From Labia minor (taxonomy: Eukaryota; Arthropoda; Insecta; Dermaptera; Spongiphoridae), in the NCBI GenBank assembly GCA_963082975.1, contig OY720344.1, positions 79,782,053 through 79,846,052 on the forward strand: 64,000 nt of DNA, written 5' to 3'. Positions 2,801 to 63,427 of this stretch are shown here, piece by piece. The translations under genes were made by a program, and so were the position numbers. Below the pieces are notes generated by a model. The model was not told where the DNA came from, made no database searches, and saw only the letters and a list, made by a program, of their open reading frames with translations. How positions within the stretch are numbered: position 1 is the first letter of the stretch; each line of letters begins with the position of its first letter.

Positions 2801-4087
2801 TTATTTATTATTTATTATGTATCTGTCAATAAGCATTGATTTCCTCAGGTAAAGAGGCATTTCGCATGATTCAACTAAAAGGGCATTTGTCGGTGTTGAT
2901 TTAATAGCACCCAAGCAACCAGGAGCCCTGTATTGCATGCTATCCAGCTTTATTAGCGTCGATTGAGGGGCATTACCGAATAGAAAGCTGCCATGATCTA
3001 GAATAGGTCTTATTAGGCTTCTATATATTAATAAAGATATATCCTGATTTAGTCTCATTTCACATTTTCTTATTACTTCATTAATCTGTAATTTCCAATT
3101 TAACTTTGGATCAAAAATAATCCCTAAGAACTTTGTATTATTAACTATTTCGATATTTATATTATTGGCTGATATAGAATATAAATTTGGAAGCTTGTAT
3201 CTTCTAGAAAATATCATAGCTTTAGATTTATTTAATTCAAATTCAAGTCCGTGATCATCCAACCATTTGTTCATCGATCCAATGGAATTAATTAAATTTT
3301 CAGAATTTTCTAAAATATTTTTGGATGAAGTAAATATACATATATCATCAGCAAATTGTAATATCTTCGTATGAGGATCTATAACTTTGCTAATGTTTGA
3401 CATAACCAAATTGAATAGTAATGGGGAAAGAACTGACCCTTGGGCTAAACCTTTATATAATAATCGTGGACCAAATAATTTATTGTTAAATTTTATGTAG
3501 ATTTTTCTAGAATAATTTAATTTAATAATACAATTAATCATTTGACTAGGGATATTAATAGATTTTAATTTTACACTGAGAGTTTATAAGACATTATCAT
3601 AAGCCGGTTTTATATCTAGGAAGATACTTGTGAGATATTCTTGTCTGGCAAAAGTATTATATATTTCATTGGATAATATTATTAAGTTATCCATAGTGCT
3701 TCTTCTAGTCCTGAATCCATACTGTTCCTCACCAAAAATATTATTTGATTCACACCACCATTCTAAACGATTTTTAATTAAAATTTCAAATATTTTAACC
3801 ATTATTGACGATAGAGCTGTCGGTCTATAAGAACTTGCTAATTGGGGATCTTTGTTTTGTTTGTGGATTGGAATTATCAATTGAGAATTCCAAGATTCAG
3901 GAAACAAATTAAAATGGAAAAACTTATATAAATTCAATAGGTGAATTTTAGCGGATTTCAGTAGATGTTTTATCATTGAGTAACTAACTTGATCGATACC
4001 AGGCGCATTATCCTTTTTAGAATCAATTGCAATTTGGAATTCCTTAAGCGAAAATGGATTGGTCAACCAATTTGAATCTATTCCCAC
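2801..4087 (-). pseudogene. Non-LTR reverse transcriptase domain (two frames)
   Basis: The first part (4087-3584) carries RT fingers and palm start: KKDNAPGIDQVSY, SSYRPTALSS, EEQYGFRTRRST and motif A as FLDIKPAYDNV. The second part (3541-2801, frame continuing from about 3583) carries KGLAQGSVLSPLLFNL and motif C as FADDICIF, followed by the thumb with KFLGIIFD and RSLIRPILDHGS. The break is a frameshift of one base with probable loss of a few codons right after motif A, around 3584. The catalytic aspartates in motifs A and C are present. In this family the enzyme copies its own RNA at the nicked target. Inactive here because of the broken frame. Confidence 0.9.
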
Positions 4088-4514
4088 AGGGTCAGAAAAA
4101 AAGACAGTTTATTCGGAACAAATGGTGGAGCTATCAGTTGAGAAAAATTTTCTATAGTTTCATCATCCAAATTAGATTTCTAATTAGGAAAGGCCACATT
4201 CTTTAAAATTTTTATTTTATTCCAAATCGTTTCTATTGAATATAAGTTTTCAAAATTAATTTCTTTAGTATATTTTTTAAATTTAGTTTTCCTTTCTTTA
4301 ATTAAGCCGGTAGCCTCTTTATCCCACCAGGGGGGCTCTTAAAAATGAATCTTTTATTAATCTTAGATTTTGTGTTACAAGCCAAATTAGCTGTCCATTT
4401 AATTGAATTTACAAAATTTTCATATGCTTTAATGGGATATTCACTATCGGTATGAACATGTATATTAGTAATTATTTTGTTCCAACAAAAGAAGATACAA
4501 ATTCCAATCGACAT
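4083..4514 (-). pseudogene. Non-LTR ORF2 linker between endonuclease and RT
   Basis: This minus-strand region continues the polyprotein. Its first part, up to a KSPP motif, is open; a +1 shift near 4325 then restores a PPWWDKEATGLIKERK block, a motif common before the RT in I/R1/jockey-type ORF2 proteins. An in-frame stop follows near 4180. There is no known catalytic role for this part; it is assigned by position and by the WWD motif. Confidence 0.65.
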
Positions 4515-4555
4515 TGTTCAAATTCAAATAACATTTATTTACTTGTTCTTTTATT

Positions 4556-5260
4556 CAGGGTCCGTTTGACCTTATACATAATTCCATATTAATGATAAAA
4601 TGGTCCGAACCTAGAGATTCATCTGAATTGTTCCAATGGATGAAAGGAGCAATATCAGGGGTAAGTAAGATCAATTGGGTAGGAGTTACGATCTAGTCTT
4701 GGAACTGTGGTCTTTTTCCCATTGTTTAGAATGACTAAACCTTCATCATTTATATGATCATTTAACATTTCGCCTGCACGATCCTGGAAGTCCGAGCCCC
4801 AAGAAGCGAAGTGCGCATTGAAATCTCCTCCGATAATAATAGAATCATAAATTTGATTTAACATAGTCTTCCAATTATTATATTTAATAAGCGTTGCAGG
4901 AGGAACATAAATGGATAGGAAAGAAAGTTTTAGTGTCTTGGATATAGATACCAGTATTCCACATATTTCAAAGTTCAGAGAATTTTTAATTAGATGTAAT
5001 TCTTTAAGTTTGAAAGACTTTTTAATTAGAATACAAACTCCGCCTTTAGAATCAGAGCGGTCACTTCTGATAATATTATAATTCTTAAATTTGTAGGTAA
5101 AGGTTGGTCTAAACCAAGTCTCTGAGATTAATATAATATCAGTTGTATTAGAATTGATTTCATATTCTAATAATTCTTTTTTGCCATGTAGTGATCTGAC
5201 GTTCCATTGTTTAAAAGATATACTTTGAAAATTATCAAATTGATTAGCATTAGTCGCCAT
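4556..5260 (-). pseudogene. Non-LTR ORF2 N-terminus: AP-like endonuclease domain
   Basis: From the ATG at 5260 the product begins with an endonuclease of the exonuclease/endonuclease/phosphatase family, which nicks target DNA to prime reverse transcription. Visible motifs are FKQWNVRSL (N), LISETW (E), the GGVCILIKKSF block and GGDFNAHFASWG (D and N). After a frameshift near 4661 the last catalytic block follows in another frame as LGSDHFII. All expected catalytic motifs can therefore be seen, but not in one frame. The first open frame stops at 4655. Downstream it leads into the linker before the reverse transcriptase. Confidence 0.85.
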
Positions 5261-5262
5261 TG

Positions 5263-6103
5263 ATATATTTGTTAAAATAAAAAATTCTAAATATTATAAT
5301 ATATATATTCTTAATTCTTAAAATTATCATTCATTTATAGTATAAACTATTTAAATGGAAGATTTTTTATTTTTTTAATCTTTATCTTTTTTTTAATCAG
5401 ATTAATAAAACATATATAAAATAGAATAAAAAATAAATATAAAAATATATGTATATTTATATCTTTTCAATTTCAATCAAATAAATTAATTTATCAAAAG
5501 ACTTTACTATTATTTTTATTCATCATTTCAATTATAAATTTTAGATTTTTAATTATATATTATCAGAATTTGATAAATCCTTTAGATTTTTTTTAATAAT
5601 TGGATTATAACATAAATTCACACACTCTCCTCTGAGATTTCCATATCATGTCCGTCCTGATTATAGACCAACTCAAAATAAATGAATTCTATGTAATTTT
5701 ATAATATATATATATATTTTTAATGATTTCTAAAAACATATATCAATTATACACTCTTTAAAATACTCGGAGATTATCCCATACGATGTGCACTGTATGA
5801 AGGTTCAAGTTAACTGAAGATTCAGTTTTACAATAATTGAAAATTATTCAGAAAAAAGAAATATTTAAATTTTAATTATAATAATTTAAATTAACAAAAT
5901 TAATTACAAAATATATATATAAATGAGCAAGATCACTGTAGTATTAAAATAATACTTAAATTTAATTATTGAACTTATTAAGATTTATAATAAGTTCAAA
6001 ATATAATTATTAATAAAATTAAATAAAATAAATTTTATAAAAATATGTAATATATAAATACTTGTTTATACTAGGTTTAACCAGTAGTTAAAGATTTATA
6101 TAC
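5263..6103. other. AT-rich spacer, nothing recognised
   Basis: Very AT-rich with short TA runs. No ORF of interest, RNA gene or repeat end is visible. Confidence 0.5.
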
Positions 6104-6105
6104 TA

Positions 6106-7981
6106 AGGTGAAGTGGGGTAAGATCGTAAACGGGGCAAGATCGTTATCGCTTTAAATCTATTCTAATATCCATTACATTAAATAGAATAAGTAGTGGAAA
6201 GTTGTATTTGATTATTATGTACTAAATAAACTAGAAGTCGCTCGTTCGCAAGTAAGTTTGCTGCTTTTATAACCTGTGTAAAGTTCCGCTCATTCTGAAC
6301 TACAAATGCAAGTTAGAGCTAACAAGAAACTGCCGTAATATTTCAATAAATCTTGTATCCTAAGCGATTATTTTAGGTAAGTATTATGAAAATTGTTTAA
6401 AATTTACTTTAAATAAATAAATTCTATTGTTTGTTTCTTATATTAAAAACCGAAAATTACTACTTCGGTCTTGCCCCGGAAAAATTCGTGTGCGGGGCAA
6501 GACCAAAGCATGTGACGGGGTAAGACCGTAGTGGTTTACGATCGTATGCGTAATTTAAATTAATATATGATTGCCACTCTACCGTCCAATTAATAGAAAA
6601 AGGTGTTGAGTCTAATGTTACAATTTTAAAGCTACCGCCTCATACAAGCCACGTGCTGCAACCCTTAGACCTGAACGTCTTTAAACCTTTGATGACTTCG
6701 TGGAGTCAGAAGTTAGTCACATGGCAAAGAAAAAATATTGGAGTAAAGTTGCCAAAACAACAATTTTACAAAATGATTGGCAAAATTGGGCTCGATTTAG
6801 ACTCACGAATAATAATCAATGGTTTCAAGAAAGCTGGTATTTATCCATTTTCTAGTAATGTCGTTCCTGACTCTATGTTTAGTGCTGCTTGCTTGAAACA
6901 ATGGAAAGATCAAAATGTTAAAAATCCTACTGAAACGGACGAGCCACTATTGATCAAAGATCCTACCTTATCGATTATTGAAAAAGCTGCTTGCCATCCG
7001 CTTATATTCATTGATTCCCCGCTCGATAACATTATGCCTGTTGACGAAACGTTTGCCTTGAGTGAAGAAAGTTCCCCCGAGATGTTGCAGCAATCTCAAA
7101 GAAACATTTCTCTGTTTGTAGTTTGTAATAATCCTCAGCCAGGCACATTTGAAAATCTCTTATTAGAAACTATAAAAACAAACTCTACACCGAATCATCA
7201 AAAGAAAAAGAGAATCGCTACAGGAGCTGAGGTAATCATCTCAGGAAAAAAAAATGGAAAAAAATCCGAAGGTATACCTGTATCAAACACAGCGAACACC
7301 TCTCGAGATGATAATTTATGTACAATCTGCAAATTCGACTTTCGGTATTATAATGATAAAAGAGAATGGATTCAATGTATAACATGTATGAACTGGGTGT
7401 TCGGAATGTGTAATAAAGGATTCAAGTTGAAGCAATACGAATGTGAAAGATGTGATGATGATGGCTAAATTAGAAAAACTGAAAAACTTTATTTTATTTA
7501 AAAAAAAAATTATTTTCTTTTATTTGCTTCATTCAAATATACTTTTTGCTTAAATAAACTTATTTTTTTCTTGCTTATGTTCTTAGTTTTTTTTACTTAC
7601 TTATAACCACAAACAAAACACTCTTTAGAAATCTATAAGTAACTTTGGAATTAATTAACCGATTTTAATCTAGTAAAAATATTTTCAATAATGGTAAATG
7701 ATGAATCCGATGATGCCCCATAACATATGAACTTTTATTTTAAGGAGCTTTAAACGGTAGCTAACGGGGCAAGTCCGGATTAGCTGCTATACATTTTTGA
7801 TTTGTTATAAAAGTTGTAAATTTTAGTGAAAGTTTGTGTTTATGTCAATGCAAATTAAAGAGTATTAGTTGAACTTTATCGATGAAACCAACAAAATGTT
7901 AAATATTTGAAACATAATTTTAAAAATAAATGGCAAAGTCGAACTTATCAAAAACCGGTCCGGACTTACCCCACTTCACCT
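6106..7981 (+). mobile_element. Pogo-like DNA transposon, internally deleted, TA target duplication
   Basis: Terminal inverted repeats AGGTGAAGTGGGGTAAG open the element at 6106 and close it, inverted, at 7981. Each is flanked by TA (6104-6105 and 7982-7983), the duplication expected of the Tc1/mariner/pogo superfamily. Copies of a GGGGCAAGA-type motif are scattered inside in both orientations (near 6131, 6470, 6494, 6520 and 7764) and may be subterminal transposase-binding sites. Only the C-terminal part of the transposase remains, so the element is non-autonomous. Confidence 0.9.
6554..7468 (+). pseudogene. Pogo-like (DDE_1) transposase, C-terminal half with PHD-like finger
   Basis: The frame is open from 6554, after a stop, to the TAA at 7468, without a convincing start codon. 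It begins within the catalytic core at DCHSTVQLIEKG, matching the LDGH-type second aspartate of DDE_1 transposases. It then continues through LPPHTSHVLQPLD and the region ending FKKAGIYPFS, typical of the pogo/Tigger/jerky-like core. The C-terminus is a basic segment plus a C-rich module with CTIC, WIQCITC, WVFGMC and CERC. This resembles the PHD-like finger attached to some insect pogo transposases, but the usual His in the WVH position is Phe. The N-terminal CENP-B-type DNA-binding domain and first catalytic Asp are missing. In family terms the protein cuts and pastes the element; this copy cannot. Confidence 0.85.
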
Positions 7982-8935: not shown

Positions 8936-9462
8936 TTAAAATCGAACGTCCGTCATATTTAATGCATCAGGTATAAATCTTTGTATATGAGCGATATATC
9001 TGGTGCATTCCACAACTCTTAGGTTTCCCATGTTTTCAATTATTATGTTTTCTAGCTGCTGTAAACGATACTCGGTTTGGGCCATGTCGACTCTTTCATC
9101 ACCGGCTAGAATTTGTGGCATTCGATTAGCTAAATCTCTTTTGACATCATATTTTAAGCTTGACCAAGCGTGTTCGATAGCATTAAACATTGGGCTATAT
9201 GGTCCAAGTCTTAGCAGTCGATGACCAACAAATTCATTTTCTTGGAAAACTTCTTCGATTGATGCATGAGATGGTGCATTATCAGTTATTAATATAACTA
9301 TTGATTGATATATATTATGAGCATTCCTGAGGCAATTACGCACGAATTCATTAGCTTTCGGCTTCTTAAAAGCACCTCTTCTAATTTCATGATAAATCAA
9401 ACCCATTTTCCCAATACATCCAATGACATGAATATTCGCCCCTTTGCAACCAGCTGAAATAT
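8936..9462 (-). pseudogene. IS630/Tc1-type DDE transposase, C-terminal fragment (DD35E)
   Basis: The frame is open on the minus strand from about 9462 (after a stop) through an internal Met at 9406 to the stop at 8936. It contains KGANIHVIGCIG, ITDNAPSHASIEEVF with the second catalytic Asp, and LGPYSPMFNAIEHAWSSLK with the catalytic Glu. Exactly 35 residues separate that Asp and Glu. This arrangement is that of the DDE_3 superfamily (IS630-Tc1-mariner). The helix-turn-helix domain and first Asp are absent, and no terminal inverted repeats were identified. A 5' frame break, loss of the N-terminus and lack of ends make it a relic. Confidence 0.8.
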
Positions 9463-9852
9463 GTGTTCAACGGCTTCCTTTTTTATATAGATAAACAAAT
9501 TTTGCTTTATTTTTTCCTTCCAGCCTTACGCAACTTACTAAATTTTATTTGTTTATGTTTGGGGAAGTAGAGAGAAAGAACATGCAAAATTGCTTTTCAA
9601 TTTTTATCTTATAATTTGAATTAATTGAAAGTGTAAATGAATTAAGAAATACTAAGTATATCTTATACAAATGTTCATATACTGATATTATAAATACAGT
9701 TACAATTTATATATAAAAAAAAACAATACCTTTTTCACGCCGCTTAATATAAGAACAAATTTTAGGTCAGCTGATATACTATAATCCATTGCGTTTAATT
9801 GTCTCTGTAAAATTGGAAATTTTTAAAAATTAATAATGTCTGTCGATAGTAA
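9463..9852. other. AT-rich spacer, nothing recognised
   Basis: Possibly the decayed remainder of the neighbouring transposon; no ends, genes or repeats are visible. Confidence 0.4.
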
Positions 9853-10354: not shown

Positions 10355-10796
10355 TGTGGTATAACAAGGAAAAATGAAAATAAAATTTGATGATGAATGA
10401 AATAATTTATTTATTTGACCAGGATTCGGCCGGGATGGCAACATAATACAATGACTTATATTTATTATATGAAACTAAAATAAAGAATGAACAAATAAGT
10501 AGTAAATTAGTAATAAATTATGAATAATATAGATATATTTACAATTAGTTATTTTTTTATTCTTTTACTCACCGTGACAAAAGAAAGATTTTGAATTTGA
10601 GTAGTGATTAAATATATATATATATATATATATTAGAGATGATAAGGTATTTAAAATTTCAAAATTCAAAAGAGAGAAAAGTACAAACTTAACCGATACG
10701 TCGGCAACGCAGAAAAAAAAGAAAAGTGAGCTTGGCGACAATTGACAGTCACTCGTCACCAGAGGGAAGCTCGAGCGCGAAATTTTAAACGTTACA
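10355..10796 (-). repeat. 3' LTR of the Ty3/gypsy element
   Basis: Starts TGTGGTATAACA and ends GTTACA on the plus strand; 442 bases, apparently identical to the copy at 14226-14667. It contains a 20-base TA run and an AATAAA-type signal on the minus strand (near 10560). The polypurine tract lies just inside it. Confidence 0.95.
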
Positions 10797-10812
10797 CACC
10801 CCCTTCCAGCGG
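10797..10812 (-). promoter_or_regulatory. Polypurine tract
   Basis: The minus strand reads GGAAGGGGGTG directly before the 3' LTR. Position and purine run match the plus-strand primer of LTR retrotransposons. Confidence 0.75.
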
Positions 10813-11024
10813 AGAAGTTCCCTCTGGATGATCGAGATAGAGTTTTAGTTTGGAAGGATGCCAGAGACCAATGATTTTTCCCCGTGAGTCCTTCAACTTG
10901 CAAGATCCTCCGGGAGACACCGAGATAACATTATATTCTTGTGTTTGAGTCAGGACTGCGCCTAAGCCAGTATTACTTGCGTCTGTTTGCAGAGTGAACG
11001 GTAGCGAAAAATCGGGTCGGGCGA

Positions 11025-11625
11025 GAACAGGTGCTATGGCTGATGATGAATGATGATCACGGTGGGAATATTTGGTACGATGACGACGTGAATGGAAATC
11101 GAATTCATCATCATCATATCGTCGCCTTGAGCGATGTCGGTGACGATGATCTGATGATGACGATGATGACGTGAACGGGAACGAGAATGGTAACGGTAAC
11201 GAGAACGAGATCTTCGATGATGATGATGGTGTTGATGGTGATGATGGTGATGATGATGATGATGACGTGAACGGGAACGAGAACGGGAACGGTAACGAGA
11301 ACGGGAACGGTAACGGTAACGAGAACGAGATCTTCGATGATGATGATGGTGTTGATGATGATGATGACGTGAACGGGAACGAGAACGGTAACGAGAACGA
11401 GATCTTCGATGATGATGATGGTGATGATGATGATGATGACGTGAACGGGAACGAGATCATTCGCAAGAGAACCCGTTGATGGTGCAGAAGCTGTTGAAGG
11501 CGGCAACGAGGCCGACTGTTGCACTGGAGCCACACCACAATCACAATTATTAACTCCTTGATTGGTAAACATAATAATATATATAGCTTAATTATATATA
11601 TATAGTTGTTCAATAATAATGAAAT
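11025..11625. repeat. Foreign tandem-repeat segment replacing the RT palm
   Basis: This roughly 600-base piece sits between the broken RT and the RNase H start. It contains about three and a half tandem units (from about 11171 to 11460), each made of GGGAACGAGAACGGTAACGAG-like words, then GATCTTC, then a GAT run. All three minus-strand frames are open through it; one of them reads Arg-Ser and His repeats (RSRSRHHHHH, RRSRSRYR) and another a Pro/Ser-rich lead-in (SASLPPSTASAPSTGS). Next to the RNase H side is HRHRHRSRRRYDDDEFDF. Nothing in it resembles Ty3/gypsy pol. It may be a captured piece of a host Ser/Arg/His-rich gene, but the source is unknown. Confidence 0.6.
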
Positions 11626-12421
11626 AGGATAAGAGTCTTTCGTGGTGACTTGGTTAACTTTTCTGAAATCGATACAGAATCGGTATTTTGGTCCCTTTTT
11701 TACCATAACTACTGGGGAAGACCACGGGGATTGACAGGCTTCCACTAGTCCTTCCTTTAACATCCTGTCCAGTTCTTTCTGCATCTCCTCTAAAACCTTT
11801 GGAGAATACTGATAGGACCTCTGTTTAATCGGTCGAGCATTTCCAACTTCAATTTTATGCGAGATACAAGTAGTTGATACAGAAGACTGCTGAAGAGAAG
11901 ATAGGCCATCTTTCACGGATCGATCAAGCTCTTGTTTCTCCGAAGTAGTAAGTCTCTGGATTCCGCATAAAGTTTCAGACGGTGAAGAGGTAAATAAATG
12001 AAAATTAAAAATAATATTTGGGTTATCTTCGAACCACCATATGGCTTTTCTAGCATTGGTACACATACCGGCGAGAGAGATAAAACCTAACCCTAATAGT
12101 AATTGAAATGGCAATGTCGGTAAACAATAGAGATAAATGTTATTAAAATTACGATTTCCAAAAGCAACAGGGACTTTAAAAAGTTTAGACACAGTGCTAG
12201 TGGTATTATTAGCGGCAGAAATTTTAAATTCAGGGATAGATTCAGGAATAAATCCCATCTTCAGTAGCATTTTTTCGGTATCCAAATTTATGTAGGTTGA
12301 AACTGAACCAGGGTCATATAGAGCCATAACTGGTCTGTGACCCAGGGTTGCTTGGATGGTGATGAGTGAGAAATAAAATTGTCTTGTGGGGCTATCGGCG
12401 AAATGGGAACGAATCCGACCC

Positions 12422-13690
12422 CTAGGTTCTGTTCCCTTTGGAGTTTACCGAAACGCATTTAGGACAATTCGGGAGAGATACTCCTGGGTGTCCACATCGG
12501 TAGCAAAATAAGGTTCGTGGTTTCGGGCAAAATGAGTAAACGTGGTTTCCCCGGCAGTTCCAGCAGATCAGAGGTCTACCGGAGGATTCTTTAGTTTTCT
12601 CATCCCGGGATAGGTGTTCAGGGTGTTTAGCTGACTCCTTATTTTTAGAGGAAACTTCTGAAAGGTTTTTATCTTGATTTTGGACGGAAGAAGAACCTAC
12701 GCTATATATTCCTCCCGGTATATCATTTTTAGGAAATGGTGGAGGCTTAGAAAAATTTCCTGGCTTAGGTTTCGACGGACGTGAAAGCGTTTCGAGATTT
12801 CTACATCTTCTAGTCACAAAATGTATCAACTCGGTATAGGTAGGAATGTTGTTATTTTTAACCTCGTCCTCAAAAGCGCGACGAGTACCGTTGTCGAGGT
12901 TTTGAAAGGCAAGATGAAACTTAAGGAAATCTGCGAGATCGTTAATATTAAGAGCGTTTAACGCATTGAAGCTAGTTTCGTGAGTTGTCAAGAAATTTTG
13001 TAGATTGTTCGCTGATGAATTAGAAAGGGGAGTAAATTCAGTCACTTTATTAAGATAATTAGTAGCGAGTCGACGAGTGTTTTGGTATCGGATTTTTATA
13101 GAGTCATATGCTAATATATAATTGGGTTCTTCAAGAGCAAACCCAGATATAATAGCCAGAGCTTCCCCTTGAAGACTTCTTCTAAGATAATGAAATTTTC
13201 GAATAATAGAAAGTGACGGCTCTTTGTGAACTAAGCTGTCAAATAAAGCAATAAATTCAGGCCAATCGTCCAGTTTGCCTGAAAATGTAGGTAATTCTAA
13301 TTTAGGAAGATTATTAATTGATGAAGGATTACTATTAGTTGCCCCAGACGCTACAGAATGATTCGAAGTTGCCTCTGGAGAAATAGCTTTTCGAAATTTG
13401 AAATAATTTTCTTTTGTGGCGTCAATTAAGTTAAAGGTAGCGCAATTAGTTTGTGTGGTCTCTAAACAAAGATTTTTATCAGATGTGGTAGCATTATGCA
13501 AACGAATTTTATTCTGAACATTTCTAAATTCGACTTCTAATTCATTGAGTCTCTCATAGTAAATGCGGAATGATTCTACTGTCTCTATAGTAAGAGTTTT
13601 GGACTTTTTATATAGATCGTTAATAAGGGTAAATATATCTTCTCTTTCGGCTTGGAGAATAATATTATTTTCTTCATGCTTAATCTCCAT
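12422..13690 (-). CDS. gag: Gag protein of the LTR element, with BEL/Pao-like capsid region
   Basis: A complete 422-residue frame starts at the ATG at 13690 and ends at 12422. Residues 128-138 read LPKLELPTFSG, followed by WPEF, FHYLRRSLQGEA and an IKIRYQN block. This is the signature of the DUF1759 type of Gag best known from BEL/Pao elements. The C-terminus has two nucleocapsid zinc knuckles: residues 376-388 fit CX2CX3HX4C, while in the second (396-409, CYRCGHPGVSLPNC) the usual metal-binding His position is Val. Gag packages the element's RNA in virus-like particles. The frame is intact, so unlike pol this protein may still be made. The pol frame begins in the overlap in a different (+1) frame, so a ribosomal frameshift would be needed. 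Confidence 0.85.
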   Translation of the reverse strand: MEIKHEENNIILQAEREDIFTLINDLYKKSKTLTIETVESFRIYYERLNELEVEFRNVQNKIRLHNATTSDKNLCLETTQTNCATFNLIDATKENYFKFRKAISPEATSNHSVASGATNSNPSSINNLPKLELPTFSGKLDDWPEFIALFDSLVHKEPSLSIIRKFHYLRRSLQGEALAIISGFALEEPNYILAYDSIKIRYQNTRRLATNYLNKVTEFTPLSNSSANNLQNFLTTHETSFNALNALNINDLADFLKFHLAFQNLDNGTRRAFEDEVKNNNIPTYTELIHFVTRRCRNLETLSRPSKPKPGNFSKPPPFPKNDIPGGIYSVGSSSVQNQDKNLSEVSSKNKESAKHPEHLSRDEKTKESSGRPLICWNCRGNHVYSFCPKPRTLFCYRCGHPGVSLPNCPKCVSVNSKGNRT

Positions 13691-14201
13691 TGTGAATAAG
13701 TTTATGAGAAGGATATGTGAGCTTTCTAGAAATATAGTAAATATCTATCTATTATTTATTAGATAGAGCAAAGAAAGTTTTAAAAATTCAAAAATAAAAA
13801 TTTAAGTTAAATTTCAATGTCACGGTAAGTTTACAAAAATATGTATAATTTTTTTTTTTTATTATTAATAAATTATGTAAATTTTATACAAATATATATT
13901 AATTTTAGATTTTAGAAATAGTTTAAATTAAATTAGTTCGAATTCACTCGAAATTAGCTAAAAATAGTAATAAAATATTTGAAATGAAATTTATACTTTG
14001 AAATATTAAAGGATTATTTTTTTTTCTTTTAACATACAAAATAATTAATAATATTAATAATATAAGAAATTGTTTTTAAATAATAATAAAATATGAAATT
14101 GGAAGGAAGAAATTTATTTTCAACAAAAATTGTTAAATGTTCATTCAAGAGACGGTACCTTCTATCTTCTTCTATTCGAGAGAGTCTTGATGATTAGGCT
14201 G
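13691..14201 (-). other. 5' leader of the LTR element
   Basis: About 510 bases of very AT-rich non-coding sequence between the primer binding site and the gag start codon. Confidence 0.7.
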
Positions 14202-15722: not shown

Positions 15723-16304
15723 AATAAGTTGACCTGTGGCCAGGTCCGAACCGACCGACGGTTTGAAGTAAATTGATTTCGAGCTACAGAAACAATTTCA
15801 AATAATTTTAATATATCTATTAATGTAATAAAAAACATATAGGCATATAACATAAATATTTTTAATTTTATTTATAATATATAAGGAGGCCATGGCTGTG
15901 ATGTCATGAAGAGCTGGGTGTCGTCATATAATTTAAAATTAAGAAAAAACTAAATTAAAGTGCATGATTCGTGGTGATATGTAAAAATTCTCATGTGAAA
16001 TTTGGTGTGAAAATAACTCTTCCCTTCCTATCGTCGATCGCTAATACTACCACTTCCGGTTTCCGGATTAGCACCAAAAGTCAATCAATTCATCATATCG
16101 ATGCATTAAGTAAATATACCAAATTTCATCAAAATCCGTTGAACCGTTCAAGCTGTACACATCTATACGGACGGACGGACAGACATCATGCTAAAAATAC
16201 TTTTTTCTGTTAAGAAAATGCATGATTCGTGGAGATATGTAAAAATCTCCACATGTGAAATTTGGTGTGAAAACAATACCTCTCTTACTATCTTCGGTCG
16301 GTAA
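15723..16304 (-). mobile_element. DINE-1-like family A copy nested in the mariner
   Basis: On the plus strand it starts AATAAGTTGACCTGTGGCC (the family A 3' tip reversed, including the GACCTGTGGCCAGGTC hairpin) and ends ATCTTCGGTCGGTAA (5' motif reversed). The interior has the GACG microsatellite and the CAAATTTCATCAAAATCCGT block. It lies between T/A-rich flanks inside the mariner 3' region. Confidence 0.9.
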
Positions 16305-20920: not shown

Positions 20921-21935
20921 ATGTATTATTATGTTGCTAACTTCATGAATATTTCTTTGGGTGGGGGAATATATTTCAAATATTTCATAATTTGATTCTA
21001 AATTATTATTAAAATAAATAATTTTAATTTTATTTCGAAATTAAATTAAAATCAACTGAACATTTTAAAACATTTTAAATATAAAAAAATAATTAATACA
21101 ATATTAATTAAAAAAGAATAAGTTTGGAGACAACTGTGATAACTAACGCCATTTTATTTTTAAAATTATTATATTTGAATAAGAAAAAACTACAAATATG
21201 ATTTTTCTCGAGAATGATTAATTTTTACTATCTCGCCAGAGATAGTATTGCGATCACGAAAATTTTCGATGTTGAGATTTTGATGTTTTTATACGTTTTG
21301 AAGGTTCCTGAATCATTTTCACTAAGGATGAGAAAAATGTCTGTGTGTGTGTGTGTGTATGTGTGTGTGTATGTAGGCAAGATTACGCAAAAACGGTTTG
21401 AGCTAGAATGATGCAATTTGGTACATGAGCATTATTCAAAATTCATAGTTTTCTATCAACTTTTGAGAAATGTAGCTCAACCGGAAGAGGGTCATTACCT
21501 ACAACGTTTTGATTTTTTTTCCTCTAAAGTGACCGTAAAAATAAAGATATATATGATATATGATAATTTTTCACATGATTAAAAATTGTATAAAACTGCT
21601 ATATATAGAATTTCAGCTTGATTGAATCGCTGAAAGTACCGGAATTAATTTTTTAACACTGCAAATCTCAAGCGCCAACACGTGCCATGGTGCCATCAAT
21701 AAAAAACCAAACATGCGCTGGTTTAATATTTATTATTTACAATTTATAATTAATTAAATTTAATTTAAATATAATATATTATGTTATTTAATCCAATTCA
21801 AATTGCGAGATAGTCGAGTGGAGACACTCCAGCTTATTCTTTATAAAAATTACCTATTGTGTGAATTTTAAAACAATCCTTAGCATTATAAAATATTTCA
21901 AAAATATACAAATATATATATAATACAAACAAACA
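20921..21935 (+). repeat. Dispersed repeat D, copy 1, split by a family B insertion
   Basis: Left part (about 20921-21225) and right part (21836-21935) match, in order, the continuous copies at 30795-31165 and 60180-60415. Shared words include TATGTTGCTAA, AACATTTTAAAA and TTCTTTATAAAAATT, TCCTTA and AAAATATACAAATAT. The interruption is exactly the family B element. The repeat is non-coding and its 3' half resembles blocks in family A. Confidence 0.7.
21226..21835 (+). mobile_element. DINE-1-like family B, complete copy
   Basis: The 5' end is the hairpin ACTATCTC-GCCA-GAGATAGT. Next come a GT microsatellite (21340-21375), a conserved block with AAACGGTTTGAGCTAGAATG, and an AT-rich tail. The 3' end has GCGAGATAGT, which is the inverse of the 5' motif, then the hairpin GAGTG-GAGA-CACTC and CAGCTTATT. 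That is subterminal inverted repeats plus 3' terminal hairpin plus internal microsatellite, the plan of DINE-1/Helentron-associated elements. Short open frames here are artefacts. Confidence 0.85.
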
Positions 21936-23202: not shown

Positions 23203-23348
23203 AATAAGCGGGAGTGTCCTCCCCTAGACTTTCCCGCATATAAATAGGTATAAAGAGTTGTGAATGAATATTTAGAATGTGTAAACTTGGTATTGATAAA
23301 GAGCCAGTTCATATTAGTTTATTGGTGTCAAATGTGATATTTGTTAAC

Positions 23349-23383
<35 letters not shown>

Positions 23384-23824
23384 AAAGTGCTACTTCCGGT
23401 TAACTGATATTTTAAATGTAAAAAAAAACAGATATGGATATAATATAAATATTTTTAATTTTATTTTATTTATAATATATAAGGGCTGGCTGTGACGTCA
23501 TGACGTGCTGGGTGACGTCATATAATTTTAAATTAAGAAAAAACTAATGAAGATGATTTTTCTCGAGGATAAAACTAATACAAAGTGCATAACACGTGGA
23601 GATATGTCCTCACGTGAAATTTGATATGAAAGTCCTAGCTTGATTAGTTTTTGAGTAAATTTGCTTACAGACATTACATACATACATACACACACACAGA
23701 CATAATTCGAAAAATGGTATTTTCCGACTCAGGGAGGTCTAAAACGTCAAGATCTATCGAAATCTCGAAGTCGAAATTTTTGACGATTCCAATACTTCCC
23801 TTATACGAAGTATGCGGGAAAGTA
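23203..23824 (-). mobile_element. DINE-1-like family C copy with a family A-like 3' half
   Basis: Read on the minus strand it opens with TACTTTCCCGCATAC-TTC-GTATAAGGGAAGTA (complement ending about 23824), a nested hairpin. A TG/TATG microsatellite and an AAAACTAATCAAGCTAGG block follow. The other end has, in plus-strand order, AATAAGC, the hairpin GGGAG-TGTC-CTCCC, CTAG and ACTTTCCCGCATA, the 5' motif inverted. Plus positions 23405-23590 are close to the 3' half of family A (GTGACGTCAT, TAAATTAAGAAAAAAC, GATGATTTTTC). It is therefore a chimera of two families. Confidence 0.8.
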
Positions 23825-32129: not shown

Positions 32130-32784
32130 TACCGACCGACGATAGTAAGGGAGGTATTGTTTTCACACCAAATTTCACATGTGGAGATTTTTACATATCT
32201 CCACGAATCATGCATTTTCTTAATAGAAAAAAGTATTTTTAGCATGATGTCTGTCCGTCCGTCCGTCTGTCCGTCTGTCCGTCCGTATAGATGTGTACAG
32301 CCTGAACGGCTGAACCGATTTTGATGAAATTTAGTATATTTACTTAATGCATAAGTGGGATGAATTGATCAACTTTTGGTGCAAATCCGGAAACCAGAAG
32401 TGGTAGTATTAGCGATCGACGATAGGAAGGGAAGGGTTATTTTCACACCAAATTTCACATGAGGAGATTTTTTTATATATCACCACCATTGGTTTTGTCC
32501 TCGGGAAAAATCATCTTCATTATATTTTTCTTAATTTAAAATTATAAGACGTCACCCAGCCCTTCATGACGTCACAGCCTCCTTATTATGATCACGGGCA
32601 ACGCCGGCTACTTCAGCTATATATTATAACTAAAATAAAATTAAAAAAATATTTATGTTCTATCCATATCTGTTTGTTATTACATTAATAGATATATTAA
32701 AATTATTTGAAATTGTTTCTGTGGCTGGATATTAATTTATTTCAAACTGTCGGTCGGTTCGGACCTGGCCACAGGTCAACTTAT
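32130..32784 (+). mobile_element. DINE-1-like family A, complete copy
   Basis: 5' motif TACCGACCGACGATAG, a GTCC/GTCT microsatellite near 32250, the AACGGCTGAACCGATTTTG block, and a second copy of the TTTTCACACCAAATTTCACA block. The AT-rich 3' half has GACGTCA palindromes. The 3' end carries CGTCGGTCGGT (inverse of the start), hairpin GACCTG-GCCA-CAGGTC and AACTTAT before T. The core microsatellite block resembles the CCGTCTGTCCGT region of Drosophila DINE-1/INE-1. Non-coding. Confidence 0.9.
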
Positions 32785-32810
32785 TAAAAATGTAATTTAA
32801 ATTATAATTA

Positions 32811-33414
32811 GCTGGAGTGTCTCCACTCGACTATCTCGCAATTTGAATTGGATTAAATAACATAATATATTATATTTAAATTAAATTTAATTAATTATAA
32901 ATTATAAATAATAAATATTAAACCAGCGCATGTTTGGCTTTTTGTTGATGGCACCATGTCACGTGTTGGCGCGTGAGATTTGCAGTGTTAAAAAATTAAT
33001 TCTGGTAATTTCAGCGAATCAATCAAGCTGAAATTTTATAAATAGCAGTTTTATACAATCTTTAATCATGTGAAAAATTATCATATATCATATATATCTT
33101 TATTTTTACGGTCACTTTAGAGGAAAAAAAATCAAAACGTTGTAGGTAATGACCCTCTTCCGGTTGAGCTACATTTCTCAAAAGTTGATAGAAAACTACG
33201 AATTTTGAATAATGCTCATGTACCAAATTTCATCATTCTAGCTCAAACCGTAATCTTGTCTACATACACACACACACACACACACACGCACACACACAGA
33301 CATTTTTCTCAACCTTAGTGAAAATGATTCAGGAACCTTCAAAACTTATAAAAACATCAAAATCTCAACATCGAAAATTTTCGTGATCGCAATACTATCT
33401 CTGGCGAGATAGTA
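32811..33414 (-). mobile_element. DINE-1-like family B, complete copy, adjacent to family A
   Basis: Plus strand starts GCTGGAGTGTCTCCACTCGA (3' hairpin reversed) and CTATCTCGCAA, and ends with ACTATCTCTGGCGAGATAGT. A CA microsatellite lies at 33265-33300. It sits 26 bases after the family A copy, in opposite orientation. Confidence 0.9.
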
Positions 33415-61985: not shown

Positions 61986-62614
61986 AATAAGTTGACCTGT
62001 GGCCAGGTCCGAACCGACCGACGATTTGAAGTAAATTAATTTCCAGCTACAAAAACAATTTCAAATAATTTTAATATATCTATTAATGTAATAAAAAACA
62101 GATAGAACATAAATATTTTTAATTTTATTTTATTTATAATATAAAGCTGAAGTAGCCGGCGTTACCCGGCGTTACCCGAGGCTGTGACGTCATGAAGGGC
62201 TGGGTGACGTCATATAATTTTAAATTAAGAAAAACATAATGAAGATGATTTTTCCCGTGGATAAAACCAATACATTCGTGGTGATATGTAAAAAAATCTC
62301 CTCATATGAAATTTGGTGTGAAAATAACCCTTCCCTTCCTATCGTCGATCGCTAATACTACCACTTCCGGTTTCCGGATTTGCACCAGAAGTTGATCAAT
62401 TCATCCCACTGTTGCATTAAGTAAATATACCAAATTTCATCAAAATCGGTTGAGCCGTTCAGGCTGTACATATCTATACGGACGGACGGACAGACATCAT
62501 GCTAAAAATACTTTTTTCTGTTAAGAAAATGCATGATTCGTGGAGATATGTAAAAATCTCCACATGTGAAATTTGGTGTGAAAACAATACCTCCCTTACT
62601 ATCGTCGGTCGGTA
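61986..62614 (-). mobile_element. DINE-1-like family A, complete copy (tandem pair, left)
   Basis: Reversed 3' tip AATAAGTTGACCTGTGGCC, GACGG microsatellite, reversed 5' motif TCGTCGGTCGGTAA. A duplicated GGCGTTACCC word marks its 3' half. Nearly identical to the next copy. Confidence 0.95.
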
Positions 62615-62794
62615 ATTATTGTAAACTCTTATTTGTTATCTTATGGGATAAAATATTTTATGTATCACAAATTGGCTAATAAACATACACTTGTTTTAAA
62701 TTAAACTTATCGGTTATAGTTCTGTTCCGCCGTATTTAAGGTCATTGGATTGATTCTTGCTAAGTGTATTCAGCTCCAAAATAATACATAAAAT

Positions 62795-63427
62795 AATAAG
62801 TTGACCTGTGGCCAGGTCCGAACCGACCGACGGTTTGAAGTAAATTAATTTCCAGCTACAGAAACAATTTCAAATAATTTTAATATATCTATTAATGTAA
62901 TAAAAAACAGATAGAACATAAATATTTTTAATTTTATTTTATTTATAATATATAGCTGAAGTAGCCGGCGTTACCCGGCGTTACCCGAGGCTGTGACGTC
63001 ATGAAGGGCTGGGTGACGTCATATAATTTTAAATTAAGAAAAACATAATGAAGATGATTTTTCCCGTGGATAAAACCAATACATTCGTGGTGATATGTAA
63101 AAAAATCTCCTCATATGAAATTTGGTGTGAAAATAACCCTTCCCTTCCTATCGTCGATCGCTAATACTACCACTTCCGGTTTCCGGATTTGTACCAAAAG
63201 TTGATCAATTTATCCCACTGATGCATTAAGTAAATATACCAAATTTCATCAAAATCGGTTGAGCCGTTCAGGCTGTACACATCTATACGGACGGACGGAC
63301 GGACAGACATCATGCTAAAAATACTTTTTTCTGTTAAGAAAATGCATGATTCGTGGAGATATGTAAAAGTCTCCACATGTGAAATTTGGTGTGAAAACAA
63401 TACCTCCCTTACTATCGTCGGTCGGTA
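62795..63427 (-). mobile_element. DINE-1-like family A, complete copy (tandem pair, right)
   Basis: Same orientation and almost the same sequence as 61986-62614, including the duplicated GGCGTTACCC word; differences are a handful of substitutions and one GACG unit. Open frames here are incidental. Confidence 0.95.

Follow-up and report, generated by a model that had tools for sequence, protein, structure and literature searches.

The locus studied here raises the question of what kind of mobile element carries terminal motifs that differ from family to family and match each other at the two ends of each family. The window, a 64,000-nucleotide stretch of the Labia minor genome (G000:C1:79782053-79846052; the assembly comprises 604 Mb in 71 contigs), contains three such families, here called A, B and C. 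An initial annotation had given positions 32130..33414 for these families. The range consists of two elements facing each other tail to tail, A on the forward and B on the reverse strand; C lies elsewhere in the window. We consider it very probable that all three are non-autonomous Helentron-associated elements (HINE/DINE-1 type, Helitron2 group) that were moved by rolling-circle copying with the Rep/helicase of larger relatives.

The A element of this range is complete, non-coding and 655 bp long (32131..32785, +); among 20 fetched A copies, 18 align over positions 1-655, L010 aligns over 1-654 and L015 from 17 on. A run of T precedes its 5′ subterminal inverted repeat (subTIR) ACCGACCGACG at 32131..32141, and an inner repeat, GGGAGGT, followed by ATTG, stands at 32149..32155 and can pair with the subTIR only in part (ACC/GGT and CC/GG around a GA/GA mismatch). 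Further inside are a GTCC/GTCT microsatellite (32248..32286) and a degenerate second copy of the 5′ end (32411..32481). The 3′ subTIR at 32748..32758 reads TGTCGGTCGGT in this copy, with one mismatch, and is followed by the hairpin GACCTG-GCCA-CAGGTC (32762..32777), supported by complementarity and by folding, and by the tip AACTTATT (32778..32785).

The neighboring B element is likewise complete and non-coding, with a length of 608 bp (32806..33413, -). Its 5′ subTIR ACTATCTCGC starts at 33413 and, together with the inner repeat, forms the predicted hairpin ACTATCTC-GCCA-GAGATAGT at 33394..33413 (fold z -3.45). The 3′ subTIR GCGAGATAGT occupies 32830..32839, and a hairpin region GAGTGGAGACACTC, for which two alternative stems can be drawn, ends with the tip CAGCTAATT at 32806..32828. 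The B 3′ sequence quoted in the initial annotation, GGAGACACTCCAGCTTATT, is real and belongs to a copy at 21820, whereas the B copy within the range ends in CTAATT. The C element (23203..23823, -; 621 bp) includes part of an A-like body, and its 5′ subTIR ACTTTCCCGCATA starts at 23823 with the inverse at 23228. Additional complete elements are a B at 21227..21838 (+) and A copies at 15723..16302 (-), 61986..62613 (-) and 62795..63426 (-), and several partial copies are also present. The two A copies within 61986-63426 (-) have the same orientation, are 181 bp apart and have different flanks.

Other mobile sequences share the window. Pieces of a non-LTR retrotransposon, with an endonuclease (4658-5293) and a reverse transcriptase in two open reading frames, lie at 2804-5293 (-), and pieces of an LTR retroelement at 10795-13744 (-) include one frame with a DUF1759 gag-like match and a second with an RNase H stretch, interrupted by low-complexity sequence. 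DDE transposase pieces (DDE_1 and DDE_3) are found at 6554-7465 (+) and 8939-9466 (-). At locus L031 (-), a hAT-type element with a Dimer_Tnp_hAT match sits inside a B copy (4105-2748), flanked on both sides by CTCTAAAG. At L060 another B tail (469-612) starts 11 bp beyond a complete B, an arrangement that looks like double copying of the 3′ end.

The end codes that define the families follow the T run at the 5′ end (ACCGACCGACG in A, ACTATCTCGC in B and ACTTTCCCGCATA in C), and a full inverse of each stands before the 3′ hairpin (CGTCGGTCGGT, GCGAGATAGT and TATGCGGGAAAGT, respectively), as the initial annotation had stated and as the window coordinates confirm. The 5′ copy is terminal and the matching 3′ copy is internal, with a hairpin drawn by complementarity between the 3′ subTIR and the 3′ end in every family. 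We also found a second inverse copy beside the 5′ code that the initial annotation does not list. This inner copy is clear in B (ACTATCTC-GCCA-GAGATAGT), is gapped by one base in C (ACTTTCCC..GGGAAGT) and is partial in A (GGGAGGT); in B and C, as in A, it is followed by ATTG.

By complementarity the 3′ hairpins are GACCTG-GCCA-CAGGTC in A, GAGTG-GAGA-CACTC in B and GGGAG-GACA-CTCCC in C, and the tips that follow are AACTTATT, CAGCTTATT and GCTTATT. The three stems differ, those of B and C resembling each other and A having another stem, so the earlier description of a hairpin and CTTATT-like tip similar in all families applies to the tip throughout and to the hairpin in part for B and C, but not to the stem of A. 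A minor class of B tips, GATTTTT, accounts for 3 of 34 ends. A GNNA loop is present in all 76 hairpins counted with the drawn stems, a number that represents three families rather than 76 independent events.

Folding predictions agree with these drawings to varying degrees. The program returned the A 3′ stem as drawn, but it preferred TGGAG-ACA-CTCCA at the B 3′ end, and at the C 3′ end it paired the right arm with the 3′ subTIR; the best predicted fold of the C 5′ end also differs from the one drawn from the alignment. Relative to shuffled sequences, z values for the 5′ folds are 0.42 (A), -3.45 (B) and -1.98 (C), the A 5′ fold being no better than shuffled sequence, and those for the 3′ folds are -1.88, -1.46 and -3.44, respectively.

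Families B and C align over their first 115-125 bp and last 60 bp and thereby permit a direct comparison of codes. Two positions distinguish their subTIRs, and the 3′ subTIR mirrors both; the inner repeat shows the corresponding changes save for one missing base.

The recurrence of this plan was assessed by scanning the window and 20 random 10-kb genome stretches (264 kb in total). A pattern consisting of T plus a 10-mer, the inverse 10-mer and a hairpin gave 21 matches, of which 15 are A, B or C (one being a cross-pair of two neighboring A copies) and six are others; five Markov-shuffled controls of 264 kb gave 0, 1, 0, 0 and 1 matches. A second scan, starting from the hairpin and tip, recovered 25 tips. 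Twenty of these belong to A, B or C, and 16 of the 20 have a matching 5′ word, whereas the controls produced 1, 1 and 4 tips, none of them paired. The five remaining tips comprise one paired and four unpaired cases. Neither scan of the 264-kb sample revealed a fourth repeated family, the extras being single matches only. Genome-wide, 29 bases taken from the C 3′ end have 2,669 exact matches, compared with 0 for their reversed control, and a search of viral contigs with two exact patterns gave 0 matches.

Exact probes for the 5′ subTIR plus inner repeat, applied to 96 sequences (363,811 bases in all; many of the sequences are chosen copies), gave 48 A-A, 25 B-B and 22 C-C modules, and probes for the 3′ subTIR plus hairpin stem gave 25 A, 30 B and 21 C modules. 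All 12 mixed classes, six for each end, have counts of 0. Complete elements in the window and the 20 random stretches comprise 15 A-A, 7 B-B, 1 C-C and 1 A-C pair. The A-C pair, at L030, arises from an A piece (1-556) lying inside a C element whose own 5′ end is upstream, and hence all 24 complete elements of this unbiased sample have concordant ends when one nested insertion is allowed.

Pairing over a larger set of fetched loci yielded 35 A-A, 7 B-B, 1 C-C and 1 A-C, with 12 A 5′, 4 B 5′, 1 B 3′ and 1 C 5′ ends left unpaired, the last being that of L030. One of the 35 A-A loci, L015, is without a true 5′ end, so that 34 A copies were kept. Further fetched copies carry the ends of their own family in 20 of 20 cases for B and 20 of 20 for C; the C loci were picked by the 5′ part (14) or the 3′ part (6), and the 20 B copies, like the 20 A copies, are best matches of a full-length query and are biased toward complete copies. 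The C ends are nearly constant even though element length spans 597-1468 bp. Two apparent B-to-C pairs in a probe listing proved to be cross-matches of probes with seven errors each and were discarded.

Within families the picture is different. Among 62 copies scored (34 A, 27 B and 1 C) there are 0 compensated changes, with 7 changed positions at the 5′ end and 15 at the 3′ end of A, 6 and 1 in B and none in C. The proposed covariation of end motifs therefore stands between families and fails within them, and the lack of compensation implies that pairing is not preserved after insertion. Combined with the mirrored B and C changes, this pattern suggests that the codes change together in a source element, while single copies decay freely. 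The ends are linked in the sample and the codes are family-specific; three families represent few independent events.

A natural experiment on how rolling-circle elements choose their own ends is provided by composite C elements, which bypass an A start. A sequence is present in 17 of the 20 fetched C copies, 15 of which carry A 1-556 from its first base; the other three (L064-L066) are about 600 bp long. Copies with A sequence have the tip GCTTATT (GCTTTTT in L076), and those without it have GATTTTT or GAATTTT. Seven composites were found regardless of their 5′ end (L075-L080 and L030), and all seven start at the C 5′ end. In each, the A 5′ end lies nearer to the C 3′ end, yet it is not used. 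This outcome is what pairing of matched codes predicts, although the seven composites may descend from a single ancestral composite.

The insertion sites also bear on the mode of transposition. At least five T residues precede the 5′ end in 72 of 82 complete copies (A 31/34, B 22/27, C 19/21; flanks read by eye, the nested C of L030 omitted), and the left flank is at least TT in 81 of the 82. Paralogous empty sites were recognized for A copies inserted in A (L020 and L005), for L013 (against window positions 27432-27313), for L022 (against L017), for two window elements compared with L026 (the A starting at 62613, 82% identity, and the B starting at 21227, 74%), for a B copy (L056 against L029) and for a B inserted in B (L051); many weaker alignments were excluded as AT-rich noise. 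By eye, L022 and L035 (both A) and L045 (B) occupy the same T run, at the same point of one repeat family.

No target duplication longer than 2 bp is present at the paralogous empty sites examined, in agreement with the initial annotation, which had named cut-and-paste duplications as the observation that would speak against its reading. Since the tips end in TT and the left flank is TT, insertion without duplication and duplication of TT are indistinguishable here. The families might for this reason be taken for cut-and-paste MITEs with a TT duplication and subterminal repeats, much as DINE-1 itself was once read, according to passages of PMC2374699. However, MITEs of that kind have terminal repeats at both ends and a duplication characteristic of the superfamily, whereas in A, B and C the 3′ repeat is internal and a hairpin follows it, and a linked larger element encodes Rep and PIF1 (see below). 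A cut-and-paste origin is accordingly extremely improbable. The Helentron-associated plan put forward in the initial annotation is upheld by the terminal 5′ and internal 3′ subTIRs and the hairpin, and the empty sites are compatible with it.

The Helitron_like_N profile has 104 matches in the genome, representing several lineages. One of these loci, termed copy 1, contains a 2181-aa frame (C1:47870436-47863894, -, stop to stop) that includes both Helitron_like_N (PF14214) and PIF1, and thus Rep and helicase in one protein as expected of an autonomous Helentron. An Exo_endo_phos_2 match follows the helicase (E 3.3e-4; 20.9 bits, below the Pfam cut-off of 27.4), and the frame ends in a weak Ulp1-like (C48) match that is also below cut-off. 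N-terminally, the frame also has a TnsA_C match, which was treated as chance, as no stretch passes alone.

The end of a B element (570-612) stands 1.25 kb past the stop of this frame. A second copy (C1:44693913-44694113) shares an identical 201 bp (identity printed as 100) that includes the B tip, and upstream of it PF14214 and PIF1 matches are present in shorter frames with a spacing of 1414 bp, compared with 1417 bp in the other copy. Directly after the B tip the flanks of the two copies diverge, with 53 of 155 positions equal. Shared sequence up to the tip followed by divergence indicates that a mobile unit containing the Rep/helicase region had its boundary at the B tip. The search suggested by the initial annotation for a replicase element with the same 3′ end thus succeeded for the B 3′ end, in two copies; no enzyme partner for C was found among the enzyme loci examined.

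The 5′ side of copy 1 is more complex. The leader of the frame is joined to an A 5′ end that continues with A 1-548, and the same leader occurs at four other loci (L088, L089, L090 and L091) among the 40 of 2126 candidates scored. At L088 and L090 this A start again precedes the leader, with other flanks, whereas L089 and L091 are without it; the L088 locus also shows, farther along, matches to PF14214 and PIF1 whose frames are broken. In L091 an inverted A-like 3′ end replaces the A start, and a weaker version of this arrangement is seen in L089. Still further out, 1.9 kb upstream of its A start, copy 1 carries a B 5′ end together with B 1-525, and the intervening sequence includes a piece of another Helitron.

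These features invite the explanation that the locus is a nest, in which a B copy received a large Helitron along with other pieces and the B 3′ end would not be the Helitron's own. The outlying B 5′ end and the intervening Helitron piece fit this account, as does the presence of A 1-548 before the leader in L088 and L090 and its absence from L089 and L091, which indicates that the 5′ side has been rearranged; copy 2, moreover, is not among the leader matches listed (40 of 2126 candidates scored). A nest is nevertheless rather unlikely, because the second copy shares its sequence through the B tip and then diverges, with PF14214 and PIF1 similarly spaced, and because no B body precedes the tail of copy 1 apart from weak AT-rich matches. 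Judged from its sequence, the enzyme element of copy 1 could be mixed-ended, beginning as A and finishing as B, could run from B to B with insertions, or could be nested. Its A start and B end are one point that could speak against strict linkage.

Other enzyme loci gave no comparable association. L081, whose 1652-aa frame contains Rep and PIF1, has no match to the A, B or C end probes among the matches listed and no endonuclease match at E 0.001. No A, B or C ends are present in the 6.1 kb of flanking sequence read at the C9:34.49 Mb frame, and the guessed 3′ ends at C1:55.799 and C2:66.555 Mb, which may be misplaced, correspond to none of the three 3′ ends. A third copy of the 3′ region, L093, continues into B-like sequence with a B 5′ end and is uninformative. 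A Helitron lineage with a 1652-aa frame (G000:C9:43356411-43367939 and others) has seven places of equal score, two of which are arranged head to head, and it looks recently active.

The anatomy of A, B and C fits rolling-circle copying, and the likeliest function for the code is in a pairing switch, as proposed in passages of Bao & Jurka 2013 (PMC3627910). Applied to these elements, the displaced single strand would first fold its 5′ code onto the inner repeat. When copying reaches the far end, the 3′ code would pair with the 5′ code instead and undo the 5′ fold, and the paired codes, the hairpin and the CTTATT-like tip would together mark where Rep cuts and joins. A code would then be free to change if its copies within one element change together. 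The order of these events, the pairing itself and the part played by the enzyme are inferred.

A shared protein-binding motif would also covary. The matching copies could be binding sites of a family-specific transposase, their changes following changes in the protein, with base pairing playing no part. We regard this as a possibility that deserves weight, although at less than even probability. The sites do carry the same motif, the several Rep lineages in the genome make one enzyme per family possible, pairing is not kept in copies after insertion, and several predicted folds are weak or unlike those drawn. Against this, A and B insert into T-rich sites of one kind and, by eye, at the same point of a repeat, they have the tip in common, and the inner repeat of A deviates from the motif; the A-type start and B-type end around one frame add to these points if they are not due to nesting. 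These objections are not decisive.

Rolling-circle copying with paired codes also admits a more specific and quite doubtful proposal, that A, B and C depend on a single Rep/helicase lineage and that the subTIR acts as an address which the element chooses for itself, the enzyme reading the T run, the hairpin and the CTTATT tip while pairing matches start to end. If so, the locus that starts as A and ends as B would be an element caught while switching addresses, and the GATTTTT and GCTTATT tips found in parallel in B and C would reflect a change of the shared enzyme. In C, 20 of 20 fetched copies have the tip class that goes with their having or lacking A sequence. Three abundant families residing together with an enzyme-coding relative would allow the pairing hypothesis to be tested directly with one enzyme.

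Much of this biology has precedents, and the suggestion that the covariation might be undescribed does not hold, as it already appears in portions of PMC2374699, PMC3627910 and PMC4067079. Passages of Yang & Barbash 2008 (PMC2374699) describe for DINE-1 a subTIR, a partial inner repeat, a GTCY microsatellite, a 3′ stem-loop with compensatory change in the hairpin and insertion at TT, with subTIRs that differ between lineages. Excerpts of Bao & Jurka 2013 (PMC3627910) report a 5′ hairpin and compensatory changes between the related Helitron-1N1_CQu and -1N2_CQu, for which a pairing role was proposed. In parts of Thomas 2014 (PMC4067079), families are defined by subTIR and DINE-1-type features are tied to Helentrons, and base pairing between subterminal repeats of insect elements is mentioned in a section of Coates et al. 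2015 (PMC4344730). No earlier report of these three families appeared among the matches listed from the open-licence literature, and a text search for five end motifs gave, among the titles listed, none on transposons.

Compared with individual systems, the Labia minor families do not resemble canonical Helitrons (Helitron1), which begin with 5′ TC, end with 3′ CTRR and insert between A and T, whereas the elements here run from T|ACC or ACT to CTTATT within T runs. As far as portions of PMC5148889 describe it, FoHeli of Fusarium oxysporum has asymmetric terminal inverted repeats (ATIRs) and hairpins, as here (the 5′ ones with a GAA loop), and experimental evidence for joined ends; unlike A, B and C, it is fungal and autonomous and has other tips. 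DINE-1/INE-1 of Drosophila, in the passages of PMC2374699 cited above, shares with our families the subTIR, the partial inverted repeat at the 5′ subTIR, the 3′ stem-loop with compensatory change and TT insertion, and with A the GTCY microsatellite; it differs in subTIR sequence, and B and C carry a GT/CA-type microsatellite.

Helentrons and HINEs, as sections of PMC4067079 present them, have subTIRs common to autonomous and non-autonomous partners, a 3′ palindrome, a T-rich target, several subTIR-defined families per genome and a Rep/helicase with endonuclease. The features seen here correspond to these, the endonuclease by a match below cut-off and the sharing of ends with an enzyme-coding partner at the B 3′ end. 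The mite families described there differ in having palindromic subTIRs, and the frame found here ends in a weak Ulp1-like (C48) match. Helitron2 elements, in the relevant parts of PMC3627910, resemble our families in a 5′ ATIR that folds as a hairpin, in a 3′ ATIR placed ahead of the 3′ hairpin and in compensatory changes that distinguish related elements, with a proposed pairing switch. Helitron-1N1_CRe inserts between TTTT and T/C with no duplication, comparable to the T-rich sites here, where a TT duplication would look the same. The Helitron2 elements described there come from other species, whereas three families occur here in one genome. A, B and C are therefore three abundant families of an already described class, whose plan, 5′ hairpin and compensatory change are in print.
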